DNA of 64,000 nt from Pacificimonas aurantium (GTDB taxonomy: Bacteria > Pseudomonadota > Alphaproteobacteria > Sphingomonadales > Sphingomonadaceae), in assembly GCF_020092905.1 (NCBI RefSeq), contig NZ_JAGSGB010000002.1:1178001-1242000 (forward strand), given 5' to 3'. Position numbers and translations under genes: made by a program. The notes under the pieces were generated by a model, which worked only from the letters and a program-made list of their open reading frames with translations, searched no databases and was not told the DNA's origin. Shown piece after piece: positions 25,753 to 38,689 of this stretch. Numbering within the stretch: position 1 is the first letter of the stretch; every line of letters starts with the position of its first letter.

Positions 25753-26073
25753 CTAGGCGATTTCGCCTTCGAGCCAGTCCTTGATTGAGCTTTTCGGCTG
25801 CGCGCCCACCTTCGTCGAGGCAGGCTGGCCATTCTTGAACAGGATCATGGTGGGAATTCCGCGAATGCCGAATTCCGCCGCAAGGTCGGGATGATCGTCC
25901 GTATTCAGCTTGGCGATGCGGACATCCTGCATCTCCTCCGACAACTCCTCGAGCGCCGGAGCGATCTGGCGGCACGGCCCGCACCAGGGTGCCCAGAAGT
26001 CAATGAGGACGGGCTTGTCCGATTCCTTGACCTCGGCGTTGAAATTCTCCGGCGTAATCGCGGTCGTCGCCAT
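25753..26073 (-). CDS. trxA: Thioredoxin
   Basis: Thioredoxin reduces protein disulfides using thioredoxin reductase. The 106-residue product has the active site WCGPC (Cys31 and Cys34), the cis-proline segment GIRGIPTM and the C-terminal helix. The ATG at 26073 (MATTAITPENF) has AAGGAGAG upstream. It ends the divL-tsaE-amgK-murU-addB-addA block, 107 bases after addA, an order seen in other Alphaproteobacteria. Confidence 0.97.
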   Translation of the reverse strand: MATTAITPENFNAEVKESDKPVLIDFWAPWCGPCRQIAPALEELSEEMQDVRIAKLNTDDHPDLAAEFGIRGIPTMILFKNGQPASTKVGAQPKSSIKDWLEGEIA

Positions 26074-26180: not shown

Positions 26181-29100
26181 CTACTCGTTCAACCAGAGAA
26201 GTCTCGGCCCCGCCGTATAGAGGAGTCCGCACTCCACCCGCCTCCCCGGAAAAATCGCTTCCGCCGCGCGCTGGTAGGCGTCCATCTGCGACTTGTGCCG
26301 CTCACGCACGTCAGCAAGCGAGGCTGGAACATTGCGGTCGGTCTTGAAGTCCACCAGCCGCACCCGGTGGGGCTCGACCAGCATGACGTCGACGGTCCCC
26401 GCGATGACCCGGTCCTCCACCACCGCGGTCAGAGGCGCCTCCCTAAGAGCTTCGCCGGAAAACAGCTCAGAGTGCGCAGGGTCGTCGAGGACTGCGAACA
26501 ACTCGCCAAGAAGCGCCTCGCGATCCAAACCGTCCACCTCGGATCGCCCCGCGCGCCGCTCCAGGAAAGCCGCCGCAGCCTGGCGCCTGGACTGGGGCGG
26601 CAAATCGGGAAGCCGCTCGAACAGCTTGTGAAGCACGCGGCCGCGTTCCGCCGCACGTTCAAGTGCGGGGCCCGGAGGCGGCAGACCGTCCTCATCCTCC
26701 CCTTCCGAAGGGGTCAGAGGCCTCGGCGGGGCCGCTTCTTCGGGGGCAGGTGTGCGCGCCCAGTCTGGCAACTCCGGAACGCCGGGCGACCGCGTGTCAT
26801 CCTTTCGCCCCCCGAGCGCGATCTCGCCCTCGCGGTAACGCAGGGCAAGACCGCCCCACCGGGGCGCCTCCACCTCTTCATGCTCCAAGTCGAGAAGCGC
26901 GGCCTGCATCACATGCCACCAGCTGTCACTGCCTTTACCAGCAAGGCCGCCGGCAAAGAGATAATCCTCGGCGCGCGTCATGGCGACATAGAGCAGGCGC
27001 AGGCTTTCCTCGGCATCCTTGCGCTCGCGCTCGGCCTGGAGATCGCCAAGCCTTTCCGGCAGTTCGGCCCGGCGGAGACCGTAAAGGGGAAGGCGAGGTT
27101 CCTCTTCCCCCGCCAGCAGGCCATCGACTCCCCCGCCGCCCTGCCCCGCCGCGGCTTTCGCCGCGTCAGCCATTATGACCACAGGTGCCTGCAGCCCCTT
27201 CGCACCGTGAACCGTCATGATGCGAACCGCCGCCTGCGGAGCGTCCGGATCGCGCTTGACCTCGATATCGTCGGCGACCGCGAGCCAGTCGAGGAAGCCC
27301 TGTAGCGACGGCGCGGCAAGCCGTTCGTAAGCCAGCGCCTGCGATAAGAGCTCTTCCAGAGGATCGCGCGCCTCTTCCCCCAGTCGCCGCAGCAGCTTCG
27401 AACGTCCCTGCAGCGGGCCTGACAGGATCGTTTCGAGGAAGTCGTAGGGCGGGCGATAGTCGGCCATACTCAGCACCTCGCCAAGCCAGGCTCGCGCCTC
27501 TTCCGCATGCGGACCGGACGCATGGCGAAGCGAGAACCACAGACTTTCGGTGGGCCGGTTACGGCGATTGCGCGGGCGCGGCTGCGCGAGATCGTAGAGC
27601 TGCTGCTGGGACCAGCCGAGGAAGGGAGACACCAGCAGCTCCGCCAAGGAAAGGTCGTCCTCCGGCTGCATTGCGAACTTGATCAGCGACAGGCAGTCCT
27701 TGACCGCGAGCGGTGCCGTCAGGCGTAGCCGGTCCGCGCCTGCAACCGGAACGCCGCGCGCATGAAGAGCGGCAACCAGTTCGGGCACCAGATCGCCGCG
27801 CGAGCGAAGGAGGATGAGGATATCCTGCGGTTCGACCGCCCTGCCCCGCGAGGGCAGAAAGCGCCGCTCGTCCAGCCAGCCGCCCACTTCCTCGGCGATC
27901 CGACTGGCCAGCGCGCGTTCCTTGCCGTCGGCATCGTCTTGAGAAAGAGGATTTTCCTCCGTCCCCAGCCGCGGCCACAGCGTGACGGCACCCGCCTGTC
28001 CTTTCCGATGCGGGTCGTGCGGTGGAATGGCAGTTCCCGCCATCCCGAACGCGGCAGCCCCCTTTTGCGCGATCACCCGGTCGACCACGGTGAGAACCGC
28101 CGGCACCGAGCGAAACGACCGGCTGAGCGGCACGGGTTCAAAATGTTGTTCGGCAGCCTCGGCGCGCTCGCGCGCACGGTCTCTGGCGGCGCGGAATTCT
28201 TCCGGATCGGTTCCCTGAAACCCGAAGATCGCCTGTTTGTAGTCGCCCACCGCGAACTGTGTGCGGTGACGCAGTTCTGCCTCCTCCATGTCTTCCGCCC
28301 GGGCTCCCCGTCCGGCGAAAAATTCCTCGGTTAGCGCTTCGACGATACGCCACTGCGCCGCGTTCGTGTCCTGCCCCTCGTCGACCAGCACATGATCGAG
28401 GCGCTGATCCAACTTGTAGAGCACCCACGCTCCGGGCACTTGCGTCAGAAGCCTTGCCGCCTCGGCAATCAGGTCATCGAAATCGGCCGCCCCGCGACGG
28501 GCCTTCGCCTGTTCGTAAAGCGCCGCCATGCGCCGACCGACGCGCAGATGCAGCGACGCCAGCTCGGCGATTTCAAGCCGCCAGACCGTATCGCGAAGCT
28601 GTTCCAGGCAGTCAGCCGCACGGCTCTGCTCCGGTTCCAGCTTGGCGTTCGAGGCGAAGCGTTTAGACTTCCCCGTAAAGCAGGCCGGAAACAGGTCGCG
28701 CAGGCGGCGCGCCTCTTCTTGCCCTTCGGCCGCGAAAAACGCCGTAATCGGTTGCAGCCGGGCCCTGCCTGACTTCGTGTCCCAGCGTTCCAGAGCTTCC
28801 GCATAGCCGCGAAGCGCTTCGTCAAGTCCGCTGGCCTGCATGTCCGCCCGAAGGATTTCATTTACGTCGCCCGCGCGGATGCCCAGAATCCTGCGCAATT
28901 CGGTTTCGATGTCGGCATCGCTGCCAAAGCTCGCGAGCCGGCGCCGTTCCCTGAGGAGCGAGCCGAGAAGATCGGCGGCACGGGCATCACCATGGCGAAC
29001 GGCGAGACGGCCGAGATCGGCGAGAAAGTCGCGATCCTCTCCGCTTGCGGCATCGCTGATCGCCCGCTCGAGCACCTCAGCCTTCAGCTGCGCGCCGGAG

Positions 29101-29555
29101 CGGTCGTCGAGCGTCTGGTATCCCGGCGTCATTTCGGCTTCGATGGGAAAGGCGGCAAGGAGAGAGGAGGCGAATGCGTGCAGCGTCTGCACCTTCAGAC
29201 CACCGCGCGCTTCCAGCGCTGCCGCGAACAGGGTCCGCGCGCGGCGCAAGAGTTCGGCGTCGGGAAGCTCGCCGATCGCATTCAAATCCGCAGCGATTTC
29301 CTCATCGGAGGCTGTGACCCATCGGCCCAGGTCACGGAAGATGCGGCTCTTCATCTCCGCTGCGGCGGCCTTCGTGAAGGTCAGGGCGAGAATGCCCTCC
29401 GGCCGAGCGCCGTTCAGGAGCAGGCGCAGGACTCGCGCCGAAAGAACCTGCGTCTTGCCTGTACCCGCGGACGCCGACACCCAAGCATGTACGGTGGGCT
29501 CTGCCGCGCGTTTCTGCTCCTCGGTAAGTTCGATGAGGCGCCCCCGCTCAGCCAC
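26181..29555 (-). CDS. addA: AddA helicase-nuclease subunit, double-strand break repair
   Basis: AddA, with AddB, resects double-strand breaks to load RecA, replacing RecBCD in Alphaproteobacteria. The UvrD-type helicase begins at Walker A ASAGTGKT (residues 28-35) and continues through LTFTKAAAAEMKSRI, VDEGQDTNAAQW and VHGAKGLQAPVV. The C-terminal RecB-type nuclease has VDFKTDRN near residue 1068. The start is the GTG at 29555, which overlaps the addB stop by eight bases with a GGGAGGG site upstream; this gives 1124 residues. A Met 14 codons earlier would overlap addB by 50 bases. Confidence 0.95.
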   Translation of the reverse strand: MAERGRLIELTEEQKRAAEPTVHAWVSASAGTGKTQVLSARVLRLLLNGARPEGILALTFTKAAAAEMKSRIFRDLGRWVTASDEEIAADLNAIGELPDAELLRRARTLFAAALEARGGLKVQTLHAFASSLLAAFPIEAEMTPGYQTLDDRSGAQLKAEVLERAISDAASGEDRDFLADLGRLAVRHGDARAADLLGSLLRERRRLASFGSDADIETELRRILGIRAGDVNEILRADMQASGLDEALRGYAEALERWDTKSGRARLQPITAFFAAEGQEEARRLRDLFPACFTGKSKRFASNAKLEPEQSRAADCLEQLRDTVWRLEIAELASLHLRVGRRMAALYEQAKARRGAADFDDLIAEAARLLTQVPGAWVLYKLDQRLDHVLVDEGQDTNAAQWRIVEALTEEFFAGRGARAEDMEEAELRHRTQFAVGDYKQAIFGFQGTDPEEFRAARDRARERAEAAEQHFEPVPLSRSFRSVPAVLTVVDRVIAQKGAAAFGMAGTAIPPHDPHRKGQAGAVTLWPRLGTEENPLSQDDADGKERALASRIAEEVGGWLDERRFLPSRGRAVEPQDILILLRSRGDLVPELVAALHARGVPVAGADRLRLTAPLAVKDCLSLIKFAMQPEDDLSLAELLVSPFLGWSQQQLYDLAQPRPRNRRNRPTESLWFSLRHASGPHAEEARAWLGEVLSMADYRPPYDFLETILSGPLQGRSKLLRRLGEEARDPLEELLSQALAYERLAAPSLQGFLDWLAVADDIEVKRDPDAPQAAVRIMTVHGAKGLQAPVVIMADAAKAAAGQGGGGVDGLLAGEEEPRLPLYGLRRAELPERLGDLQAERERKDAEESLRLLYVAMTRAEDYLFAGGLAGKGSDSWWHVMQAALLDLEHEEVEAPRWGGLALRYREGEIALGGRKDDTRSPGVPELPDWARTPAPEEAAPPRPLTPSEGEDEDGLPPPGPALERAAERGRVLHKLFERLPDLPPQSRRQAAAAFLERRAGRSEVDGLDREALLGELFAVLDDPAHSELFSGEALREAPLTAVVEDRVIAGTVDVMLVEPHRVRLVDFKTDRNVPASLADVRERHKSQMDAYQRAAEAIFPGRRVECGLLYTAGPRLLWLNE

Positions 29556-32517
29556 GCGAGTTGCCCTCCCACTCCTGCACGCGGGCAAGCTGTTCATAGT
29601 CCTTATATGGCGCGAATTCCGGACGCAGACGCGCCGTGAAGGGCTCGTCTCCGGTCAGCCAGCGGGCCATGGTCTGCCGGAACCGCGCACGCGCTTCCTC
29701 GAAATAGGCGGGAAGATCGCGCCAGACATTGTCGGCGGCAATTCGCGGATTGGCGCTGGACATGATCTGCCCCTCGGTCTCTCCGCCCGACAGTTTCCAA
29801 TATGCGATTTCGCTAACTTCCCTGGCATCGAGATCGTGGAAGGCGCCGACCTCAGCCATCCATGCAAGAAGCGCCAGCTGGTCCGCATATCCCTCCCTGA
29901 TCCGGCCGGGCGCGGGCGGCTGTCCGGTCTTGTAGTCGGCAACCGCGTAGCTCCCGCCGGTGTCGAAGATGACATCGGCCTTTCCCTTCAGCGTTACACC
30001 GCCGATCTCCATCTCACCGGCGCGTTCGACCGCCGCGATGCGCCAGCCACGGTCTTCATGCTCCTGCATCCTGTCCGCCGCCCAGCCGAGCATACGCTCC
30101 ACCCGCGGCGCCCACAGCGCGAGCAGGAGCGGATGGTCCGAATAACCCTTAAGCGCGGTCGCGATCGCTTCGCTGCGTCTCTGCGGATCGTGAAGGCCGC
30201 CGTCGCTACACAGCTGCTCCAGAAGATCATGAACAATCGTGCCCCGCTCGGCCGGCCCAGCTTCCTCCCCCAGCGCGTCCAGTTTCCTCAGGCCGAGCAG
30301 TTCGCGCGCATAGAACTGGTAGGGGTCGGCGCGGAGCGTCTCGACCTGCGTGACACTGATCTGCCGCGGCCGGGCCTGCATGGGGGGTGACGGCGCGGGC
30401 CGCGCGGCGGCGCAGCGCTCTGCACTGCCATCGAAGCTCGCGGCGAGGGCTGCGATCTCCTCGTCCACAGGCCAGTCATTCCCCAGCAGGGCATCGAGAC
30501 GAAGCCAGAAGCGGGAGGCTACGGTAGGGGCGGTCTCGTCCCGCGCCGCGCGCGTTACCAGGACTTCGGCCGCGCCAAGAGCCTGCTGGAAATCATGCGC
30601 AGAAAGTGCAAGCGCCCGGTCGGTCGGCGGCAGGCCCAGCGCCGTCCGAACCTTTGGCGGCAACCACGGGTCGAATGCATCGGCCGGCGGCCAGACGCCC
30701 TCGTTCAGCCCGCCAAGGATCATTAGGTCGGCGCGCTGGAGGCGCGCCTCAAGCAAACCGTAAATGGCGAGGCGCGGGTGGCGTCCGTAAAGGGGACGAA
30801 CCGCGATCCCGGCAGCGATCGCGTCGACAAGAGTGGGTAGGTCGCTCGCGCCGACGCGCCCGCTCAACTGCTCGGTTCCCAGCCGTTCGAGCTCTTCGAG
30901 AAGGTCGCTGACCGCGCGTCCCGCCTGCCCCTGCCAGAACCGCTCGTCGGACAACGCCTGCACCAAAGCGGAAAGAACCCCGGCGGCCTCTGCCACGTCA
31001 CCCGTTCGCCGACGCTGAAACAGCGCCGCGACGGGGCGGAATATTCCCTCCAGTCCCTTCCACCAGCCGACCAGCTCTTCATAGCACGGATATGTCCGCT
31101 CCAAGGACGTGGTGATACGGTTGCGCACGCCTTGCAGGCCGCGCGCAGGACGCACGCCGCGCAGGAATTGATCCAGGCGCCGTACCTTGCGCAGCCATTC
31201 GGTCCGTTCTTCGCCGCCCGGACCCGCCAGGGGATGTTTGAGGAGAGCCATGAGAGGCACGGGCGCGAAGCCGCTCTGGGCAGCCTCCAGTGCAAGCCGA
31301 AGGAAGGCGCCCGGCGGCGTCAGCGACAATGGCACGCCGGCCGAATCATCGACCTCCACGCCCCACCGCTGCATCTGCACGGCAACGCGGCGAGCAAGCG
31401 CCCGGTCGGGCGTAACGAGCGCGGCCGTCTTACCGGGAGTGTCCAGAGCCCGCCGCATCGCAAGCGCGATTGCCGCTGCCTCTTCTGCCGGGGTGCGGCA
31501 CTCGACACGTGTCAGTCCGCCAGGTGAGCGCAGCTGCGACGCACCCCAGCTTACCGTGCGATCGGGACGGCACAACGCCGCCCCAATGAGGTCCGATCGT
31601 TCCGCCGGACCATCGAGATCGGACTCGGAAGGCCAGATATCGACCTCCCCCCGCGCTGCGTCCATCTCATCGAGAAGCAGCTTGAGCGGGACCTGAGGAT
31701 GCGAATCATGCGGCGCCAGCGCGCGCCAGTCCTCCCGCGCCATATCGAGGTCGAGACCCGGCAGCACTACCGCTCCTGCGGGCAGACGGGCTATCGTTCC
31801 CAGAAGGCGCGCCGCCACAGGGTCCGCATTTGCGATCCCGGCAGCGACAATCGGCGTCTGCGGCGGGGATGCGCGCCATGCCTCGATCGTACGCCCGAGA
31901 AGCGCCTGTCTATGTTCGACCCGGTCGCTGAGTCCGGCCGCGCGGAGCAGATCGGGCCAGCTTGCAACGGCAATATCGAGAAAGCGGGCCGTCGCCTGCC
32001 AATGCGCGGCCATGTCGGCATCGACGGCGCCGGACAGATCCTCAGGCTGCGCGCCGTATAGCTGGATGAGATCGAGCGCGCGTCCCAGCGCTTGGGCATA
32101 GCGCCAGGTCTCGACCTTCGCGCGCGCCTGTCCGGTGCGCTGCTGCCACCGCTCGACAAGCGGCATGAGCCTCATGGTCCGTTCGAGGTCGGAAATCGCC
32201 GGCGGCGTTTCCAGCTCGGCGGCATCGGCCGGAAGTCCCGGCATCAGCTCACCGTCTAGGTCGCCCAGCACTGCCAGCCGCGGGAGCAGCAACGCGCCGC
32301 GACTGTGCCGGACAAACGCATCGCGAACCGCGCGCACGGCGCGGCGATTGGGCAGCAGGATCGTCGTGCGGGCCAATCCGAGCTCGCCCGGCAAGGGCAG
32401 CGCCCTACCCGACATCAGACCGGCCACAAGCCGGTCCGCAAAGGCGCCATGCGGCGGGACCGTAAAGATGCGCGGGCGTCCGCCCGCCGCGCCCGGACCG
32501 CCGGACGCTTCATTCAT
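29548..32517 (-). CDS. addB: AddB subunit, double-strand break repair
   Basis: AddB is the second subunit of the AddAB helicase-nuclease. The 989-residue product is the alphaproteobacterial type: an inactivated helicase-like N-terminal half (ARTTILLPNRRAVRAVRDAF, ALVTPDRALARRV) and a C-terminal nuclease domain with VADYKTGQPP near residue 858. The surrounding segment includes GTIVHDLLEQL and KGKADVIFD. The ATG at 32517 overlaps the murU stop by eight bases, and its own stop overlaps addA. The divL-to-addA genes thus form one coupled run. Confidence 0.94.
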   Translation of the reverse strand: MNEASGGPGAAGGRPRIFTVPPHGAFADRLVAGLMSGRALPLPGELGLARTTILLPNRRAVRAVRDAFVRHSRGALLLPRLAVLGDLDGELMPGLPADAAELETPPAISDLERTMRLMPLVERWQQRTGQARAKVETWRYAQALGRALDLIQLYGAQPEDLSGAVDADMAAHWQATARFLDIAVASWPDLLRAAGLSDRVEHRQALLGRTIEAWRASPPQTPIVAAGIANADPVAARLLGTIARLPAGAVVLPGLDLDMAREDWRALAPHDSHPQVPLKLLLDEMDAARGEVDIWPSESDLDGPAERSDLIGAALCRPDRTVSWGASQLRSPGGLTRVECRTPAEEAAAIALAMRRALDTPGKTAALVTPDRALARRVAVQMQRWGVEVDDSAGVPLSLTPPGAFLRLALEAAQSGFAPVPLMALLKHPLAGPGGEERTEWLRKVRRLDQFLRGVRPARGLQGVRNRITTSLERTYPCYEELVGWWKGLEGIFRPVAALFQRRRTGDVAEAAGVLSALVQALSDERFWQGQAGRAVSDLLEELERLGTEQLSGRVGASDLPTLVDAIAAGIAVRPLYGRHPRLAIYGLLEARLQRADLMILGGLNEGVWPPADAFDPWLPPKVRTALGLPPTDRALALSAHDFQQALGAAEVLVTRAARDETAPTVASRFWLRLDALLGNDWPVDEEIAALAASFDGSAERCAAARPAPSPPMQARPRQISVTQVETLRADPYQFYARELLGLRKLDALGEEAGPAERGTIVHDLLEQLCSDGGLHDPQRRSEAIATALKGYSDHPLLLALWAPRVERMLGWAADRMQEHEDRGWRIAAVERAGEMEIGGVTLKGKADVIFDTGGSYAVADYKTGQPPAPGRIREGYADQLALLAWMAEVGAFHDLDAREVSEIAYWKLSGGETEGQIMSSANPRIAADNVWRDLPAYFEEARARFRQTMARWLTGDEPFTARLRPEFAPYKDYEQLARVQEWEGNSRG

Positions 32518-33271
32518 CGCTGAGAAGTCGTTCCGTCGCCTGTACCGCCTCAGGCGTACCCACATGATACCAGTCGCCCTGATGTGCGAGGCCGAACAGA
32601 CGGCCCTTCTCGAGCAGCCTGTCGAAGATAAGGTTGAAACTGAACTTGCCGTCGGGCGTGTTCTCGAAAACGCTTCGTTTCACGATCTGCGTGCCGGAAT
32701 AAACGAACGGCGCGATCCGCTGACCGCTGCGCCTGGTGATGCGTCCGGCCCGGTCGAGACGAAAGTCGCCGCGGCCTGCATAGCCATGCGCGCGCATCAA
32801 GGGGACGAGGAGAAGGAGCGCGTCCATCTCTTCGGGGTTCCAGCGCTGCGCGAGAAGCGAGATGCTGTCGGTCGGACCGTCGACAAGGATGTTGTCGCTG
32901 TTGGTTACGAGGAAGGGATCGGCATCCAGCAGGTCCAGCGCCTTCTTGGTGCCGCCGCCCGTTTCCAGAAGTTCTGCGCGTTCGTCGGACAGGCGAATCT
33001 CGATGTCGGCTCTTCGCCGTCCGACATGCGCCTCGACCTGGTCAGCCAGATAGTGGGTGTTGATCACCGCGCGCTGCACGCCGGAGCGGGCCAGCGAGTC
33101 GAGGGTGTAGTCGATGAGCGGACGGCCCCGCACCTGGATGAGGGGTTTGGGCCGCGTAGCCGTGAGCGGGCGCATGCGGCGGCCGAGCCCGGCCGATAGG
33201 ATCATGGCGGCCCCGGGGACCTGCGCATCGATTCTCGGTCTCAGGGTCAGGGTTTCCTGCGCTGCCGTCAT
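32510..33271 (-). CDS. murU: N-acetylmuramate-1-phosphate uridylyltransferase (MurU-type)
   Basis: MurU joins MurNAc-1-phosphate to UTP in a cell-wall recycling route that bypasses de novo UDP-MurNAc synthesis and lowers fosfomycin sensitivity. The 253-residue nucleotidyltransferase has the signature ILSAGLGRRMRPLTATRPKP near residues 22-41 and the metal-binding loop LVTNSDNILVDGP. The ATG at 33271 overlaps the amgK stop (ATGA). The AmgK-MurU pairing is the main support for this assignment over other sugar nucleotidyltransferases. Confidence 0.9.
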   Translation of the reverse strand: MTAAQETLTLRPRIDAQVPGAAMILSAGLGRRMRPLTATRPKPLIQVRGRPLIDYTLDSLARSGVQRAVINTHYLADQVEAHVGRRRADIEIRLSDERAELLETGGGTKKALDLLDADPFLVTNSDNILVDGPTDSISLLAQRWNPEEMDALLLLVPLMRAHGYAGRGDFRLDRAGRITRRSGQRIAPFVYSGTQIVKRSVFENTPDGKFSFNLIFDRLLEKGRLFGLAHQGDWYHVGTPEAVQATERLLSDE

Positions 33272-34296
33272 GCAAGCTCTTCCGTAAAATCTCTTCGCCG
33301 GTCCGGCGGCACGTGATGGTCGAACCAGTCCCTTAGCGGCGCAAGGGCCGGGTGGGAGAGATTCGTTTCGAGATGCCGCCACAGGCGGGGCATATGCCTG
33401 AGATATCGAGGCTTTTCGTCCCGCCGCCACAGGCGGACGAACACGCCGAGAATCCGGCTGGCGCGCTGGGCACCCATGACCGCGTAGCTGGCGGCGAACC
33501 GTTCGGGGTCGAGGTCGGGACGCGCCGCCAGATAGCGCTCGAACATCTCAGGCTCGATGCCTGCGGCAACGTCGCGCCGCGCATCCTGAAGCAGCGACAC
33601 GAGATCATAGCTCGATGGGCCGCACATGGCGTCCTGAAAATCGAGAATGCCGACACGCTGCAGCCCGTCGCGCTGCGGCAGCCACATGAGGTTCGGCGAA
33701 TGATAGTCCAGCTGGACGAGCCGTTCGGCATCATAGGCCGCGGCGGGAAGCACCGCCTCCCACGCCTGCCGGAAGCTGTCGTAAGGCGGCGTATCAGACA
33801 CGCCCTGCAGTTCCGGCCAGTGCCAGTCCAGGAACAGACTGGCCTCGGAAATCAGACGATCCTGACCGTAATGTTCGATGGAGACCGGGCCAAGCCGCCG
33901 GGGCATGGGCTGGCGATGCAGCGATCCCAGAACGTCGGTCGCGGCCTGGTACATGAGAGGCTCGTCATAAGCACCGGGCGCCGTGCCCAAGACGGCGAAG
34001 AACTGCTCTTCGCCCAGATCCTCGAGCAGGATGAAGCCCCTTGGCAGATCCTCCGCGAAAATCTCCGGGGCGCTGAGATCATGTCCGCGAATATAGCGCG
34101 CCAGCTCAACGAACCATTCGCTTCGTTCGCTAGGATCCGGTGCGAACATGAGGACGCGGGTTTCCCCGCCCTTCGCCAACCGGAAGTAACGCCGGAATGC
34201 CGCATCCGCGCTGAATTCGCGCGCATCGCAGCCATCCCACCCACATGAAGCCAGAAAGTCTGCCGCACCGGGCGGCATGGCTAAATCTCTTGCCAT
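33268..34296 (-). CDS. amgK: Cell-wall sugar kinase AmgK (anomeric MurNAc/GlcNAc kinase)
   Basis: AmgK phosphorylates MurNAc at the anomeric position to feed MurU. The 342-residue protein has an aminoglycoside-phosphotransferase fold, with VQLDYHSPNLMWLP as catalytic loop and ILDFQDAMCGPSSYDLV as metal-binding loop. The catalytic Asp is present, but the preceding HRD-type histidine is replaced by Gln-Leu. The start at 34296 has GGAAG five bases upstream and overlaps tsaE by 16 bases; an ATG at 34278, two bases after tsaE, is possible. It overlaps murU by four bases. Confidence 0.9.
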   Translation of the reverse strand: MARDLAMPPGAADFLASCGWDGCDAREFSADAAFRRYFRLAKGGETRVLMFAPDPSERSEWFVELARYIRGHDLSAPEIFAEDLPRGFILLEDLGEEQFFAVLGTAPGAYDEPLMYQAATDVLGSLHRQPMPRRLGPVSIEHYGQDRLISEASLFLDWHWPELQGVSDTPPYDSFRQAWEAVLPAAAYDAERLVQLDYHSPNLMWLPQRDGLQRVGILDFQDAMCGPSSYDLVSLLQDARRDVAAGIEPEMFERYLAARPDLDPERFAASYAVMGAQRASRILGVFVRLWRRDEKPRYLRHMPRLWRHLETNLSHPALAPLRDWFDHHVPPDRRRDFTEELA

Positions 34297-34727
34297 CGCG
34301 TCTTCCAAGGCGGCGGAACGTCCGCTGTCAATGTTCGCGGTCCCTCGCCGTTCCCATCGATCCGCAAGCCGAGCGCAGGTCCGGGAACCCACGCGCCGCC
34401 GCGATCAGGCCACTCAACCAGGAGCGCACCGTCATAAAGGATCTCGTCGAGTGCGAGGGCTTCGGCCTCGCGCGGGGTCTCCAGCCTGTAGAGGTCAGCA
34501 TGCCAGACGGGCAGACGAAGCTCCGCCCCCTCATAAGCCTGCACGAGCGTGAAGGTGGGACTGGGCACTTCACCCGCATGACCCGCCCCGCGAAGAATTC
34601 CGCGCGCAAGCGTGGTCTTTCCCGCGCCAAGGTCACCGGACAATGTGACGATATCGCCCGGAGCCAGGCGTTCACCCAGCCGCTGCCCGAACCTCAGCAT
34701 CTCTTCCTCGCCTGCAAGCCGCGTCAC
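34281..34727 (-). CDS. tsaE: tRNA threonylcarbamoyladenosine synthesis ATPase TsaE
   Basis: TsaE is the ATPase that recycles the TsaBD complex making t6A37 on ANN-decoding tRNAs. The 148-residue product has Walker A SGDLGAGKTTLARGI, followed by SPTFTLVQAYE, HADLYRLE and LLVEWPDRGG, all diagnostic for the family. The start is GTG at 34727 and overlaps the divL stop as GTGA, so translation is coupled to divL. Confidence 0.95.
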   Translation of the reverse strand: MTRLAGEEEMLRFGQRLGERLAPGDIVTLSGDLGAGKTTLARGILRGAGHAGEVPSPTFTLVQAYEGAELRLPVWHADLYRLETPREAEALALDEILYDGALLVEWPDRGGAWVPGPALGLRIDGNGEGPRTLTADVPPPWKTRWQEI

Positions 34728-37132
34728 GACGAACCGGACCTGTCGGTGCTGGCGAGCAGAGTTCGCGCCGGACGGTCGGGAAGTTGCAGAACCGCCACCG
34801 TTCCGCCGCCGTCGCGCGGCTGGAGTTCCACGCTGCCGCCATGAAGCTCGGCAACCTCGCGCACGAGCGGCAGGCCGAGACCGACGCCGGAGGTGCGAGC
34901 CGCGTTGGACGCCTTGTAGAATCGCTCGAACACGCGCGGCAGCTCGTCCTTGGGCACGCCGATGCCCCGGTCCTTGATCCGGACAGAAACACCGGCAGCC
35001 TCCCGAACCGCACGAATTTCGACCTGACCGCCGTCGGGCGTGAAACGCAAAGCGTTCGCGATGAGGTTGTACAGCGCCTGGCGCATACGCATCCGGTCGC
35101 AGATCAATGTCGAGGCCTCTTCCTCGACCGCCCAGTCGACAGTGATACCGCGGTCTTTCGCGGCCCCAGCCAACAAGTCGACGCTATTTGCGATCAGATC
35201 CGAAACGTTCGCGTCCTCCGCCTCCAGCGACAAGGCCCCGACGTCGCTGGCGGCCAGGTCGATAATGCCATTGATCATCACCCGCAGGCGTTCGGCGGAA
35301 ATGAGGATCGAACTGACATAGTCGATCTGCCGCTCGGTCAGCGTCCCCGCCATGCCGGAGTGCAGCATCTCGCCGAAGCCGGTGATATTGGTGAGGGGCG
35401 TTCGAAGTTCGTAGGACATGTTTTCCACGAACCGACTTTTCGCGACATCCGCAGCCTGCAATGCGTCGGTGCGCTCGCGAAGTGCGATCTCCACCCGTTC
35501 GGTATCCGTGATATCCTCGAAGGTGCACAGCGCATTACCGTCCGGAAGCGGCACGGCAGAATAGCGGACGTAGCGGTCGTCGGCGAGTTCCAGCCTGCCG
35601 CTGCGCTCCGACCGGCCTTCGCTGGCAGCCCGCACGAGCCCGCGCATCAGGTCCTCCAGCGACCCCTCTTTCACACTTACGTCGGCCGCGGCGAACACTT
35701 CGTCTAGCTGCGGGTCTCGTGCCAGCACCTGTTCCGGAATGCCCCACAGCCGCGCAAAGGCATCATTGTGGAATTGCAGGCGGCCGGACGCAGCGAAGAC
35801 GCTAACCCCCTCCCGCAAATTCTGCAGGGTGACGCCCTGGACGCGCATAAGCTGCTCGCGCGACGAGGCCAGCCGCAGACGCTCGGACTGATCCTCGAAG
35901 ATCATGAGGAGGCCGCCATCCGGTTCCGGCTGCGCCAGCACGCGGATTACCATATTGTCCGGCAACACCCAGGTTTCCTCGATCCCGCGCTCGGCGCTGT
36001 GGAACCACTCCCCGCGTTCCTTGCGCCATCCGGGAAAGTCCCGCTGTTCGGGCAGGCGCCGCATCTCGCGCATATGTTCGAGCACCCGGTCGAATTCCGG
36101 CCGCGTCGCGATGAACTGCTCCTCGACCTGGAACAGGCGCATGAACGCGCGGTTGGCGGTCATCAGCAGCCGGTCCGGTCCGAAACGAGCCACGCCGGCG
36201 GAAAGCCGTTCCAACATGTCGGCCTGGGCCTCGGCAAAGTGCCGGTATCGCAGGCGCGCAGCTTCGATTTCGCTGATGTCGATGGCGAGGCCGGCGATGT
36301 CGCCCGAAGGCAAGGGAGTCTCGACGATCCTCAGCCGCTTGCGCTCGCCCGAAACAATCGCCGTCTCCTCGCGGAACATGGACCTCCCGCCGTCCCTGAC
36401 CTGAGCAGCGGCCTTCAACGGCGGCAGGTCGGCGCTGTCGGGTAGAAGTTCGACGCCAAGCCGCACAGCTTCGGTCGGTGAGGCTGCCTCTACCGCCTCG
36501 GCATAGGCGTGATTGACGTCGACGAGTTGGAGATCCGCGTTGCGGCGCCACACGGGAAGCGGAACGCTGGCGATAATCCCGCGCGTCGCCTCCAATAGAG
36601 TGCGCTGTTCGTCGCGTTCACGCTCGAGGGCCGACAGACGTTCGGCCACTTCCGTGAGTTCGCTGAACCACACGACCACGCCGCGCATGCCGGCAACCTC
36701 GGGAGGGGCGCTAGATCCATCGGCTTTGAGAAGCCGGCCATCCGCCGCCGTTTTCAAGGTGAGGGAAAAGGGCACGCCCGAAACGGACGTCGCCGCAATC
36801 GCCTGCTCCAGTTCGGTGAAGCCCGCGCCCTCCAGCCCGGCCGTCCGCGCCGGACCGATATCCTCGAACCGGACCGCGCGGCTGTCGAGGCCCAACCAGG
36901 AACGCAGCGTATCGGATATGGTCACGTGGCCCTCGTCGCCGACGATCAGATAGGCTCCCGGCGCCGTGGACAGGAGGCCGCGCAGCCGCAGGCCCCAGGC
37001 TTGCGCGAGCTGCGCCTGGGCACCGATGCGCGCGGAGCGGATAACGGCCCAGACCGCGAACAGGAGCCAAGCCGCGCTGACCATCAGCACCGCCGCAGTG
37101 CGGACATCCAGAGTTGTGGAAAAAAGCGTCAT
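34724..37132 (-). CDS. divL: DivL-type PAS sensor pseudokinase (Tyr at phospho-acceptor site)
   Basis: The 802-residue protein has one N-terminal membrane helix (residues about 13-33). Three to four PAS-like domains follow (about 50-150, 185-295, 310-430 and 435-555), then a dimerisation helix and an HATPase domain. In the helix the usual SHELRTPL reads SYELRTPL, with Tyr574 where the phospho-accepting His should be. The ATP-binding boxes are intact (NLIANALRF, DRGIGVP, GVGLGLP). This matches Caulobacter DivL, which has Tyr550 and controls CckA and the CtrA pathway. It heads the tsaE-amgK-murU-addBA run from its own promoter. Confidence 0.88.
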   Translation of the reverse strand: MTLFSTTLDVRTAAVLMVSAAWLLFAVWAVIRSARIGAQAQLAQAWGLRLRGLLSTAPGAYLIVGDEGHVTISDTLRSWLGLDSRAVRFEDIGPARTAGLEGAGFTELEQAIAATSVSGVPFSLTLKTAADGRLLKADGSSAPPEVAGMRGVVVWFSELTEVAERLSALERERDEQRTLLEATRGIIASVPLPVWRRNADLQLVDVNHAYAEAVEAASPTEAVRLGVELLPDSADLPPLKAAAQVRDGGRSMFREETAIVSGERKRLRIVETPLPSGDIAGLAIDISEIEAARLRYRHFAEAQADMLERLSAGVARFGPDRLLMTANRAFMRLFQVEEQFIATRPEFDRVLEHMREMRRLPEQRDFPGWRKERGEWFHSAERGIEETWVLPDNMVIRVLAQPEPDGGLLMIFEDQSERLRLASSREQLMRVQGVTLQNLREGVSVFAASGRLQFHNDAFARLWGIPEQVLARDPQLDEVFAAADVSVKEGSLEDLMRGLVRAASEGRSERSGRLELADDRYVRYSAVPLPDGNALCTFEDITDTERVEIALRERTDALQAADVAKSRFVENMSYELRTPLTNITGFGEMLHSGMAGTLTERQIDYVSSILISAERLRVMINGIIDLAASDVGALSLEAEDANVSDLIANSVDLLAGAAKDRGITVDWAVEEEASTLICDRMRMRQALYNLIANALRFTPDGGQVEIRAVREAAGVSVRIKDRGIGVPKDELPRVFERFYKASNAARTSGVGLGLPLVREVAELHGGSVELQPRDGGGTVAVLQLPDRPARTLLASTDRSGSS

Positions 37133-37300: not shown

Positions 37301-38689
37301 TCAATACCGGTAGGCGTCGGTCTTGTACGGACCTTCCTTCGGCACGTTGATGTAGGAGGCCTGCTCGTCGGACAGCTCGGTCAGATGGACGTTCAGCTTG
37401 TCGAGATGAAGCTTCGCGACCTTCTCGTCGAGATGCTTCGGCAGCACATAGACCTGGTTCTCGTACTCGCCGTGATTCTTCCAAAGTTCGATCTGCGCGA
37501 GCACCTGGTTGGTGAAGCTTGCCGACATGACGAAACTCGGGTGGCCGGTGGCGTTGCCCAGGTTGAGAAGGCGGCCTTGCGACAGCAGCAGGATACGGTG
37601 TCCGTCCGGGAAGGTGTACATGTCCACCTGCGGTTTCACTTCGACATGTTCGAGGTTGCGCAGGCCGTTCACCTGAATCTCGTTATCGAAATGGCCGATG
37701 TTCCCGACGATGGCCATGTCCTTCATTTCGCGCATGTGGTCGACGGTGATGACATCCTTGTTGCCGGTCGACGTGACGAAGATGTCGCCGTGCTTCACGG
37801 CCTCTTCCATCGTCATGACCGAAAAGCCGTCCATGGCCGCCTGCAGCGCACAGATCGGATCGATTTCCGTCACGATCACGCGGGCGCCCGCGCCGCGCAG
37901 CGAAGCCGCCGACCCCTTGCCGACATCGCCATAGCCGGCCACCACGGCCACCTTGCCCGCCATCATTACGTCGGTGCCGCGGCGAATGCCGTCCACCAGC
38001 GATTCCTTGCAGCCATATTTATTGTCGAACTTCGACTTGGTGACGCTGTCGTTCACGTTGATCGCCGGGAACGGCAGCTTGCCCTTTTTCGCAAGGTCAT
38101 AAAGGCGGTGCACACCGGTCGTCGTCTCTTCCGAAACGCCGCGGATGGCATCGCGCGTCTTTTTGAAGAAGCCGGGCGACTCCTTGAGGCGCTGCTGCAG
38201 AACCTTCTGAAACGCCTCTTCTTCCTCGTTCTGCGGCGCGGGAAGGCTTTCGCCCTCCTCAACGCGGGCGCCCCAGATGATGTACATGGTGGCATCGCCG
38301 CCATCGTCGAGGATCATGTTGCAGGGCTCGTCGCCCCACTGGAAAATCTTGTCGACATATTCCCAATATTCCTCGAGCGTTTCGCCCTTCTTCGCGAATA
38401 CGGGAATGCCGGCCTTGGCCATCGCCGCCGCGGCATGATCCTGGGTCGAATAGATATTGCAGGACGCCCAGCGAACCTCCGCACCGAGTTCGGTCAGCGT
38501 TTCGATCAGCGCCGCGGTCTGGATGGTCATGTGAAGGCACCCGGCAATGCGCGCGCCCTTCAGCGGCTTCTCCGCACCATATTCCTCGCGCGTGGCCATC
38601 AGCCCGGGCATTTCGGTTTCGGCGATGTCCAATTCGGTCCGGCCATATTGGGCAAGTCCGATGTCGGCGATGATGTAGTCTTCGGCCAT
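37301..38689 (-). CDS. ahcY: Adenosylhomocysteinase
   Basis: AhcY hydrolyses S-adenosylhomocysteine to adenosine and homocysteine, removing the product inhibitor of methyltransferases. The 462-residue protein begins [20 protein letters not shown] and contains [20 protein letters not shown]. The NAD-binding loop GYGDVGKG is near residues 247-254, and the C-terminus DAYRY is typical. The length fits the bacterial type with the insert. AAAGGAG precedes the ATG. A perfect palindrome overlapping a -10-like box lies 75-94 bases upstream, and an intrinsic terminator follows the gene. Confidence 0.98.

Follow-up and report, generated by a model that had tools for sequence, protein, structure and literature searches.

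A DivL ortholog with tyrosine at the phospho-acceptor position in an inherited gene row of Pacificimonas aurantium

Results

The window analysed here is a 64,000-nucleotide stretch of the Pacificimonas aurantium genome (NCBI RefSeq assembly GCF_020092905.1, contig NZ_JAGSGB010000002.1, positions 1,178,001 to 1,242,000 of the forward strand). Its reverse strand carries, between ahcY and tsaE, a gene which we hold with considerable confidence to be the sphingomonad ortholog of divL, encoding a probable pseudokinase-like regulator of the CtrA phosphorelay within an inherited gene cassette. The gene and its parts are as follows.

34724..37132, (-): divL ortholog, 802 aa, ATG start (open reading frame, sequence comparison and trees)
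36659..36955, (-): predicted PAS-like domain 1, residues 60-158 (AlphaFold2 secondary structure only)
36278..36553, (-): predicted PAS-like domain 2, residues 194-285 (AlphaFold2 model and several invariant residues)
35891..36196, (-): predicted PAS-like domain 3, residues 313-414 (AlphaFold2 model and several invariant residues)
35513..35809, (-): PAS domain 4, residues 442-540 (Pfam PAS_7 at 435-547 and AlphaFold2 model)
35243..35509, (-): DHp two-helix domain with H-box SYELRTPL, residues 542-630 (Pfam HisKA at 563-629 and model)
35411..35413, (-): Tyr574 codon TAC, the phospho-acceptor position (read from the DNA)
34781..35224, (-): CA (ATP-binding) domain with intact N, G1, F and G2 boxes, residues 637-784 (Pfam HATPase_c at 678-786 and model)

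A first-pass annotation of this DNA had described an SYELRTPL H-box in which tyrosine replaces histidine, together with intact ATP-binding boxes, and both descriptions are borne out: the H-box occupies residues 573-580, Tyr574 is encoded by TAC at 35411-35413, and the N (NLIANAL), G1 (DRGIGVP), F (ERF) and G2 (GVGLGL) boxes are all there. Pfam returns PAS_7 (two stretches), HisKA and HATPase_c, in keeping with a run of PAS domains ahead of DHp and CA, and the AlphaFold2 model (mean predicted local distance difference test score, pLDDT, of 76; predicted template modelling score, pTM, of 0.33) consists of an N-terminal helix, four PAS-like repeats, DHp and CA. A hydrophobic stretch at approximately residues 13-31, identified by eye, falls inside a low-confidence predicted helix (residues 9-54). 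The whole genome holds 18 HisKA matches; a degenerate DNA pattern for Y-E-L-R-T-P has a single site in it, within divL, and the same pattern written backwards, as a control, has none.

The best sequence match among solved structures is Caulobacter DivL (4q20; 1.1e-39, the next being 7e-32), in an alignment that runs through SYELRTPLT. Aligned directly, the window protein and 4q20 share 38% identity over 240 residues; among seven other kinases encoded in the genome (eight of the 18 HisKA matches having been fetched), the highest value is 34.5% over 226 residues. A quick tree with the tyrosine column masked splits 69 DivL rows, including 4q20 and the window protein, from 20 ordinary kinases with a Shimodaira-Hasegawa-like approximate likelihood ratio (SH-aLRT) of 99, and a smaller, more careful tree places the window protein with Pacificimonas (100/99), nested in a nine-row Sphingomonadales group (96/97) within DivL. 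Set against Caulobacter DivL and kinases in this manner, the window protein falls with DivL, and the identification proposed at first pass is backed by sequence, trees, conservation of the tyrosine and the presence of partner genes in the genome.

Several points nevertheless weigh against this identification and the role it implies. The careful tree gives low support (63/25) to the separation of DivL as a whole from ordinary kinases, for which a single kinase row with a very long branch (L238) is the probable cause; the remaining 11 kinases group at 95/87. Fold comparison ranks 4q20 first at Z 22.9 with several kinases tied within 1, and does not separate DivL from other kinases; it hardly probes the first three PAS-like parts, which rest on predicted secondary structure. 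Furthermore, Brilli et al. describe DivJ-PleC-DivK as degenerated or lost in Sphingomonadales (PMC2877005, as far as its available text goes), and as such the upstream input may differ from that of Caulobacter, though DivK is present here.

A search of NCBIfam with the window DivL gave no DivL-specific name, and the matches shown are generic kinases below cut-off. This result, along with a domain layout that is common among PAS kinases, would suit an ordinary PAS histidine kinase that had recently lost its histidine, be it an unrelated pseudokinase or a decaying gene. The masked-column tree, however, joins the protein to Caulobacter DivL, and the acceptor column itself already contradicts a recent loss. 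A match to P0001 at E ≤1e-60 is found in 183 of the 196 genomes of the order. Among 84 Sphingomonadales rows the column is absent from two (G193, in which DHp is gone, and G098, with a broken frame), and tyrosine occupies it in 80 of the 82 readable relatives, the exceptions being one aspartate (G022) and one serine (G028), both from group f2 and both with a degenerate CA domain. Such order-wide conservation leaves the recent-loss explanation with very little probability in our estimation, and on this ground both an unrelated pseudokinase and a sequencing error are rejected.

Rows from outside the order were hand-picked, mostly one per family, from the best-scoring places among the matches listed, and strong DivLs are thereby favoured; the counts given below for that set are to be read in this light. 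Its 94 rows comprise 67 with Tyr, 24 with His (23 of them from one family) and one each with Val, Phe and Ser, and 63 of 68 families have only Tyr. Childers et al. likewise report Tyr550 to be conserved in alphaproteobacterial DivL homologs, with the exception of Ala in Magnetospirillum magneticum (PMC4211667, available text). The YELRTP DNA pattern occurs in 165 of the 196 genomes of the order, and is rough (its Arg codon also admits Ser, and variant boxes are missed), so the acceptor column was read directly instead: of the 31 pattern-negative genomes, 18 carry Tyr in a box of altered sequence, such as YELRNP, YEFRNP or YQLRTP, Asp or Ser stands in 2, DHp is missing from 1, and 10 are without divL or not resolved. 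Pattern matches in G095, where the site is not in a divL, and in G083, where it lies off the divL locus and only a CA remnant remains at that locus, were rejected.

Two individual genes bear mention beside this column. The sphingomonad DivL of G193 (L133:12033-14162, reverse strand) runs from its PAS part straight into a degenerate CA domain, without DHp, and ChpT is present in that genome. G229 (L089/L220, group f42) has Val at the acceptor position and no cassette around divL, and no ChpT was found in it.

The ATP site behaves differently from the tyrosine. All seven of the ATP-box residues checked (N, D.G.G and G.G.G) are kept in 26 of the 82 Sphingomonadales rows and in 86 of the 94 rows from outside the order. 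The complete sites within the order belong to the window protein, to one of the 47 other rows sharing its family code f1, to 7 of 11 named loci, which include Pacificimonas and Sphingosinicella, and to 17 of 23 rows of other families. The change in f1 lies mostly at the first Gly of the G2 box, whose last two Gly are kept in 45 of the 47 rows; the N-box Asn is kept in 35 and lost in 12. The window protein and its Pacificimonas and Sphingosinicella relatives differ from most of the family in their full ATP site, while the tyrosine hardly varies. Loss of the ATP site with the tyrosine nearly constant fits the published account of Caulobacter DivL, in which binding of the ATP analogue TNP-ATP is weak (57 µM) and the CA domain dispensable (PMC4211667, available text). 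It might be argued from the seven of seven residues in the window protein, as against one in 47 in the rest of f1, and from the full sites among the named loci and other families, that an intact site marks a residual ATP-dependent activity, such as an ATP-gated conformational switch, which much of the family has lost. We consider this unlikely, since the f1 difference mostly concerns that one G2 glycine, with the N-box Asn retained in the majority of rows, and since the Caulobacter protein binds the analogue so weakly and can dispense with its CA domain.

The other members of the row lie on the same single strand, in the order ahcY, divL, tsaE, amgK-like, murU-like, addB, addA and trxA.

37301..38689, (-): ahcY, upstream row member (TIGR00936, over cut-off)
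34281..34727, (-): tsaE, GTG start (TIGR00150, over cut-off)
33268..34278, (-): amgK-like kinase, ATG 34278, alternative ATG 34296 (NF045698 best match, below cut-off)
32510..33271, (-): murU-like nucleotidyltransferase, ATG 33271 (NF045697 best match, below cut-off)
29548..32517, (-): addB, ATG 32517 chosen, alternative ATG 32565 (TIGR02786, over cut-off)
26181..29597, (-): addA, ATG 29597 or GTG 29555 (TIGR02784, over cut-off)
25753..26073, (-): trxA, usual last row member, ATG 26073 (TIGR01068, over cut-off)

The first-pass annotation had divL followed almost without gaps by tsaE, amgK, murU, addB and addA. The names of tsaE, addB and addA stand over their NCBIfam cut-offs, while amgK and murU are best matches that fall below strict ones; the near absence of gaps is correct from divL to addA, but ahcY upstream and trxA at the end had been omitted. 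The GTG start of tsaE sits on the divL stop (4-nucleotide overlap, GTGA), tsaE and amgK are 2 nucleotides apart (or overlap by 16 if the upstream ATG is used), amgK and murU overlap by 4 (ATGA), murU and addB by 8, and addB and addA by 8 or 50 depending on the choice of start; addA and trxA are spaced by 107 nucleotides. Upstream, 168 nucleotides separate divL from ahcY on the same strand, a gap that contains one GANTC and in which neither a sigma-70-like promoter nor a terminator-like site came up in simple scans. With ahcY so placed, and co-transcribed with divL in Brucella (PMC9491525), divL may not be the head of the unit that the first-pass annotation made it. The short overlaps make co-transcription of the row likely.

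A closely similar row is known from Brucella abortus, where ahcY-divL-tsaE-murU-addB-addA-trx was reported to be co-transcribed by reverse transcription PCR, with ahcY and divL on the same transcript, and was called ancestral to Alphaproteobacteria (PMC9491525). In the available text of that report, the bvrR/bvrS operon has ahcY, divL, tsaE, a nucleotidyltransferase at the place of murU, addB, addA and trx(-1) in the same order as the window, and differs in having bvrR/bvrS and phosphotransferase system (PTS) genes in front, two predicted proteins of unknown function inside its ahcY-trx part, and no separate amgK listed. In gene order and strand the row of the window agrees with the Brucella operon. 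Given this published operon, that of the window is known in kind. The joining of DivL in one row with t6A synthesis, MurNAc recycling and break repair, as put forward at first pass, is real in that the row is tight, but it is an ancestral cassette and not a sphingomonad peculiarity.

A nearer parallel is Sphingomonas parapaucimobilis YK209 (NZ_CP155749.1), in which the row reads ahcY - 'PAS-domain containing protein' - tsaE - phosphotransferase - nucleotidyltransferase - PD-(D/E)XK nuclease - addA - trxA, with 4-nucleotide overlaps and a DivL that is 40% identical to that of the window and carries SYELRTPL. The protein is not named DivL there, and, in contrast to the window, the whole ahcY-divL-addA-trxA row (539405-563231; L268) lies on a secondary replicon of 880 kb, deposited as a plasmid.

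Across the order, cassette membership was counted at 42 Sphingomonadales loci with at least 11 kb of downstream and 1.8 kb of upstream sequence. From all of these counts, those of the acceptor column included, L211 was left out for its shortness, as were L249-L255, which had been obtained to view addB in genomes without divL; the 84 rows probably contain at least one genome twice, in that L047, a named locus, seems to come from the genome of L036. At the 42 loci, tsaE adjoins divL in 41 of them, murU, addB and addA are found in all 42, and ahcY lies within 2.3 kb of divL in 31. An order kept in 41 or 42 of 42 loci is a further argument against a recent loss of the histidine from an ordinary kinase. 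Outside the order, and setting aside a histidine-bearing group discussed below (f40), tsaE, addB and addA are all downstream of divL in 35 of 54 loci, and none of tsaE, murU, addB and addA is in 15. At two Caulobacteraceae-like loci, whose DivLs are 60 and 62% identical to 4q20, divL stands without the cassette, in 2 of 2 with enough flank; these long-flank loci are outside the 54, their shorter duplicates having been counted instead.

Gene fusions were observed within the row. AmgK and MurU are joined in one open reading frame at 13 loci of group f8 and in a single genome of each of f4 and f2 (L053-L057, L059, L061, L068, L136-L140, L254, L255), and TsaE and AmgK in three families outside the order (L096:6658-8172, L131:5426-7264, L145:10490-12130).

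So stable a gene order with such short overlaps, along with the co-transcription described in Brucella (PMC9491525), could be taken to mean that divL and the cassette constitute one functional unit, in which DivL output or co-expression would couple CtrA control to peptidoglycan recycling, t6A synthesis and AddAB repair. The two Caulobacteraceae-like loci and the 15 loci without downstream partners tell against such a unit, as do genomes that have lost divL. Thirteen genomes of the order sample gave no match at 1e-60, one of which (G098) has a broken divL; the divL-less set consists of the six that are at least 99% complete, the remaining six (53-88% complete) having been set aside. A profile search of these six genomes gave only scores of ordinary kinases, the best from 4.5e-28 to 4.7e-51. 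In G105, G155 and G066 (L250, L253 and L254) ahcY adjoins tsaE with no divL between them and the other cassette genes are kept; G066 has a generic kinase upstream of ahcY. G083 (L249) retains only a CA remnant of divL between ahcY and tsaE, with the rest of the cassette kept, and G121 and G133 have addB and addA without ahcY or tsaE in the 16-17 kb fetched.

The loss of divL is accompanied by that of ChpT, which is absent from 5 of the 6 divL-less genomes (it is present in G083) as compared with 1 (G229) of 31 divL-bearing genomes of our own choosing (Fisher p = 8e-5, a value that ignores kinship, with G121 and G133 belonging to one genus). A weak association of divL with chpT was noted earlier by Brilli et al. 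(PMC2877005, available text). That divL is lost with ChpT while the cassette stays argues that divL follows the CtrA phosphorelay and is a mere neighbour of the cassette. As such, we regard a single functional unit as improbable, and the data speak against a functional coupling of DivL to tRNA modification, cell-wall recycling or break repair.

The one family that accounts for most of the histidines at the acceptor position, f40 (L188-L210), reads SHELRTPLN, with no ATP-box residue lost, in each of the 23 DivLs that could be read. It comprises 25 genomes of 2 genera, one with a match too short to read and one without a match; at a completeness of at least 80% (21 genomes), no other family was returned for its order. 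At 4 of 4 f40 loci with enough flank the cassette is complete (L215, L216 and L217 are among the f40 loci with the cassette), so these genes are DivL by position, and ChpT is present in 5 of 5 genomes tested. A second case of His, G272 (f85), has no cassette. The trees place f40 near f85, f60, f74 or f42, in a weakly supported region, and a full-length unrooted tree puts it inside a mostly-Tyr group, with 3 residue changes on the tree. Reversion from Tyr is the simplest reading of the f40 histidine, although an ancestral histidine is compatible with these data, as an approximately unbiased (AU) test with all DivL except f40 on one side of the branch does not reject it (p-AU 0.94). The quick-tree search was a poor one, as the free tree that it gave scored 42.8 log units below the constrained tree. 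It is conceivable, and we offer it tentatively, that f40 represents an order-level return from a pseudokinase to a histidine-bearing DivL with an intact ATP site, one that may act on DivK or CckA as a genuine kinase or phosphatase. A search of the literature, covering titles and the beginnings of abstracts and with subscription journals mostly outside its scope, returned no report of a histidine DivL.

Discussion

The orthology of the window gene with divL and the order of its neighbours are matters of direct comparison, and the function of its product is reasoned from Caulobacter crescentus. Caulobacter DivL (4q20; Childers et al. 2014, PMC4211667, available text) likewise has Tyr for His in the H-box and several PAS domains ahead of a DHp-CA module, and the Caulobacter genome also has the DivK-CckA-ChpT-CtrA genes. 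A difference is that in two Caulobacteraceae-like genomes divL sits outside the ahcY-tsaE-addAB row. The P. aurantium genome encodes DivK (8.4e-55 to Caulobacter DivK in the PDB, the next match being 3.6e-18; PDB searches with two other receiver domains, L171 and L155, did not return DivK), ChpT, and CtrA over its cut-off. A CckA-like hybrid kinase is the best match to its family at 454 and 561 bits, below a strict cut-off of 1000, and a CpdR-like regulator scores 175.1 bits, just under the cut-off of 180. With these genes present, the wiring of Caulobacter DivL can be drawn here, and by analogy would operate in a similar manner.

It is reasonable to postulate that the window DivL, probably anchored in the membrane, combines four PAS-like domains with a kinase-like DHp-CA module. 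With Tyr574 at the acceptor position, this module would have no histidine in the usual place on which to accept a phosphoryl group. As in Caulobacter, DivL may set the balance of CckA between kinase and phosphatase, and hence ChpT and CtrA, and binding of DivK~P at the DHp face may switch it; we infer from this likeness a protein that would sense DivK~P and control CckA while being without kinase activity of its own. The position of divL between ahcY and tsaE reflects an inherited alphaproteobacterial gene order, probably co-transcribed, with cassette partners that are housekeeping neighbours and with divL itself kept or lost along with the CtrA phosphorelay.

The regulator and its ancestral gene row were read correctly in this window, and both a Tyr574-type DivL and the row are already known. 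The comparison does, however, provide handles on what the dead kinase module of DivL is for. If f40 is indeed a reversion, then the window DivL, with its tyrosine and complete ATP site, would show how small the step between the two states is. Natural lineages in which divL has been lost with ChpT, in which DHp has been lost, or in which His stands at the Tyr position could be used to learn which portions of DivL are required by the CtrA phosphorelay, and it is the lineages without divL, or with the histidine, that are the part worth following.

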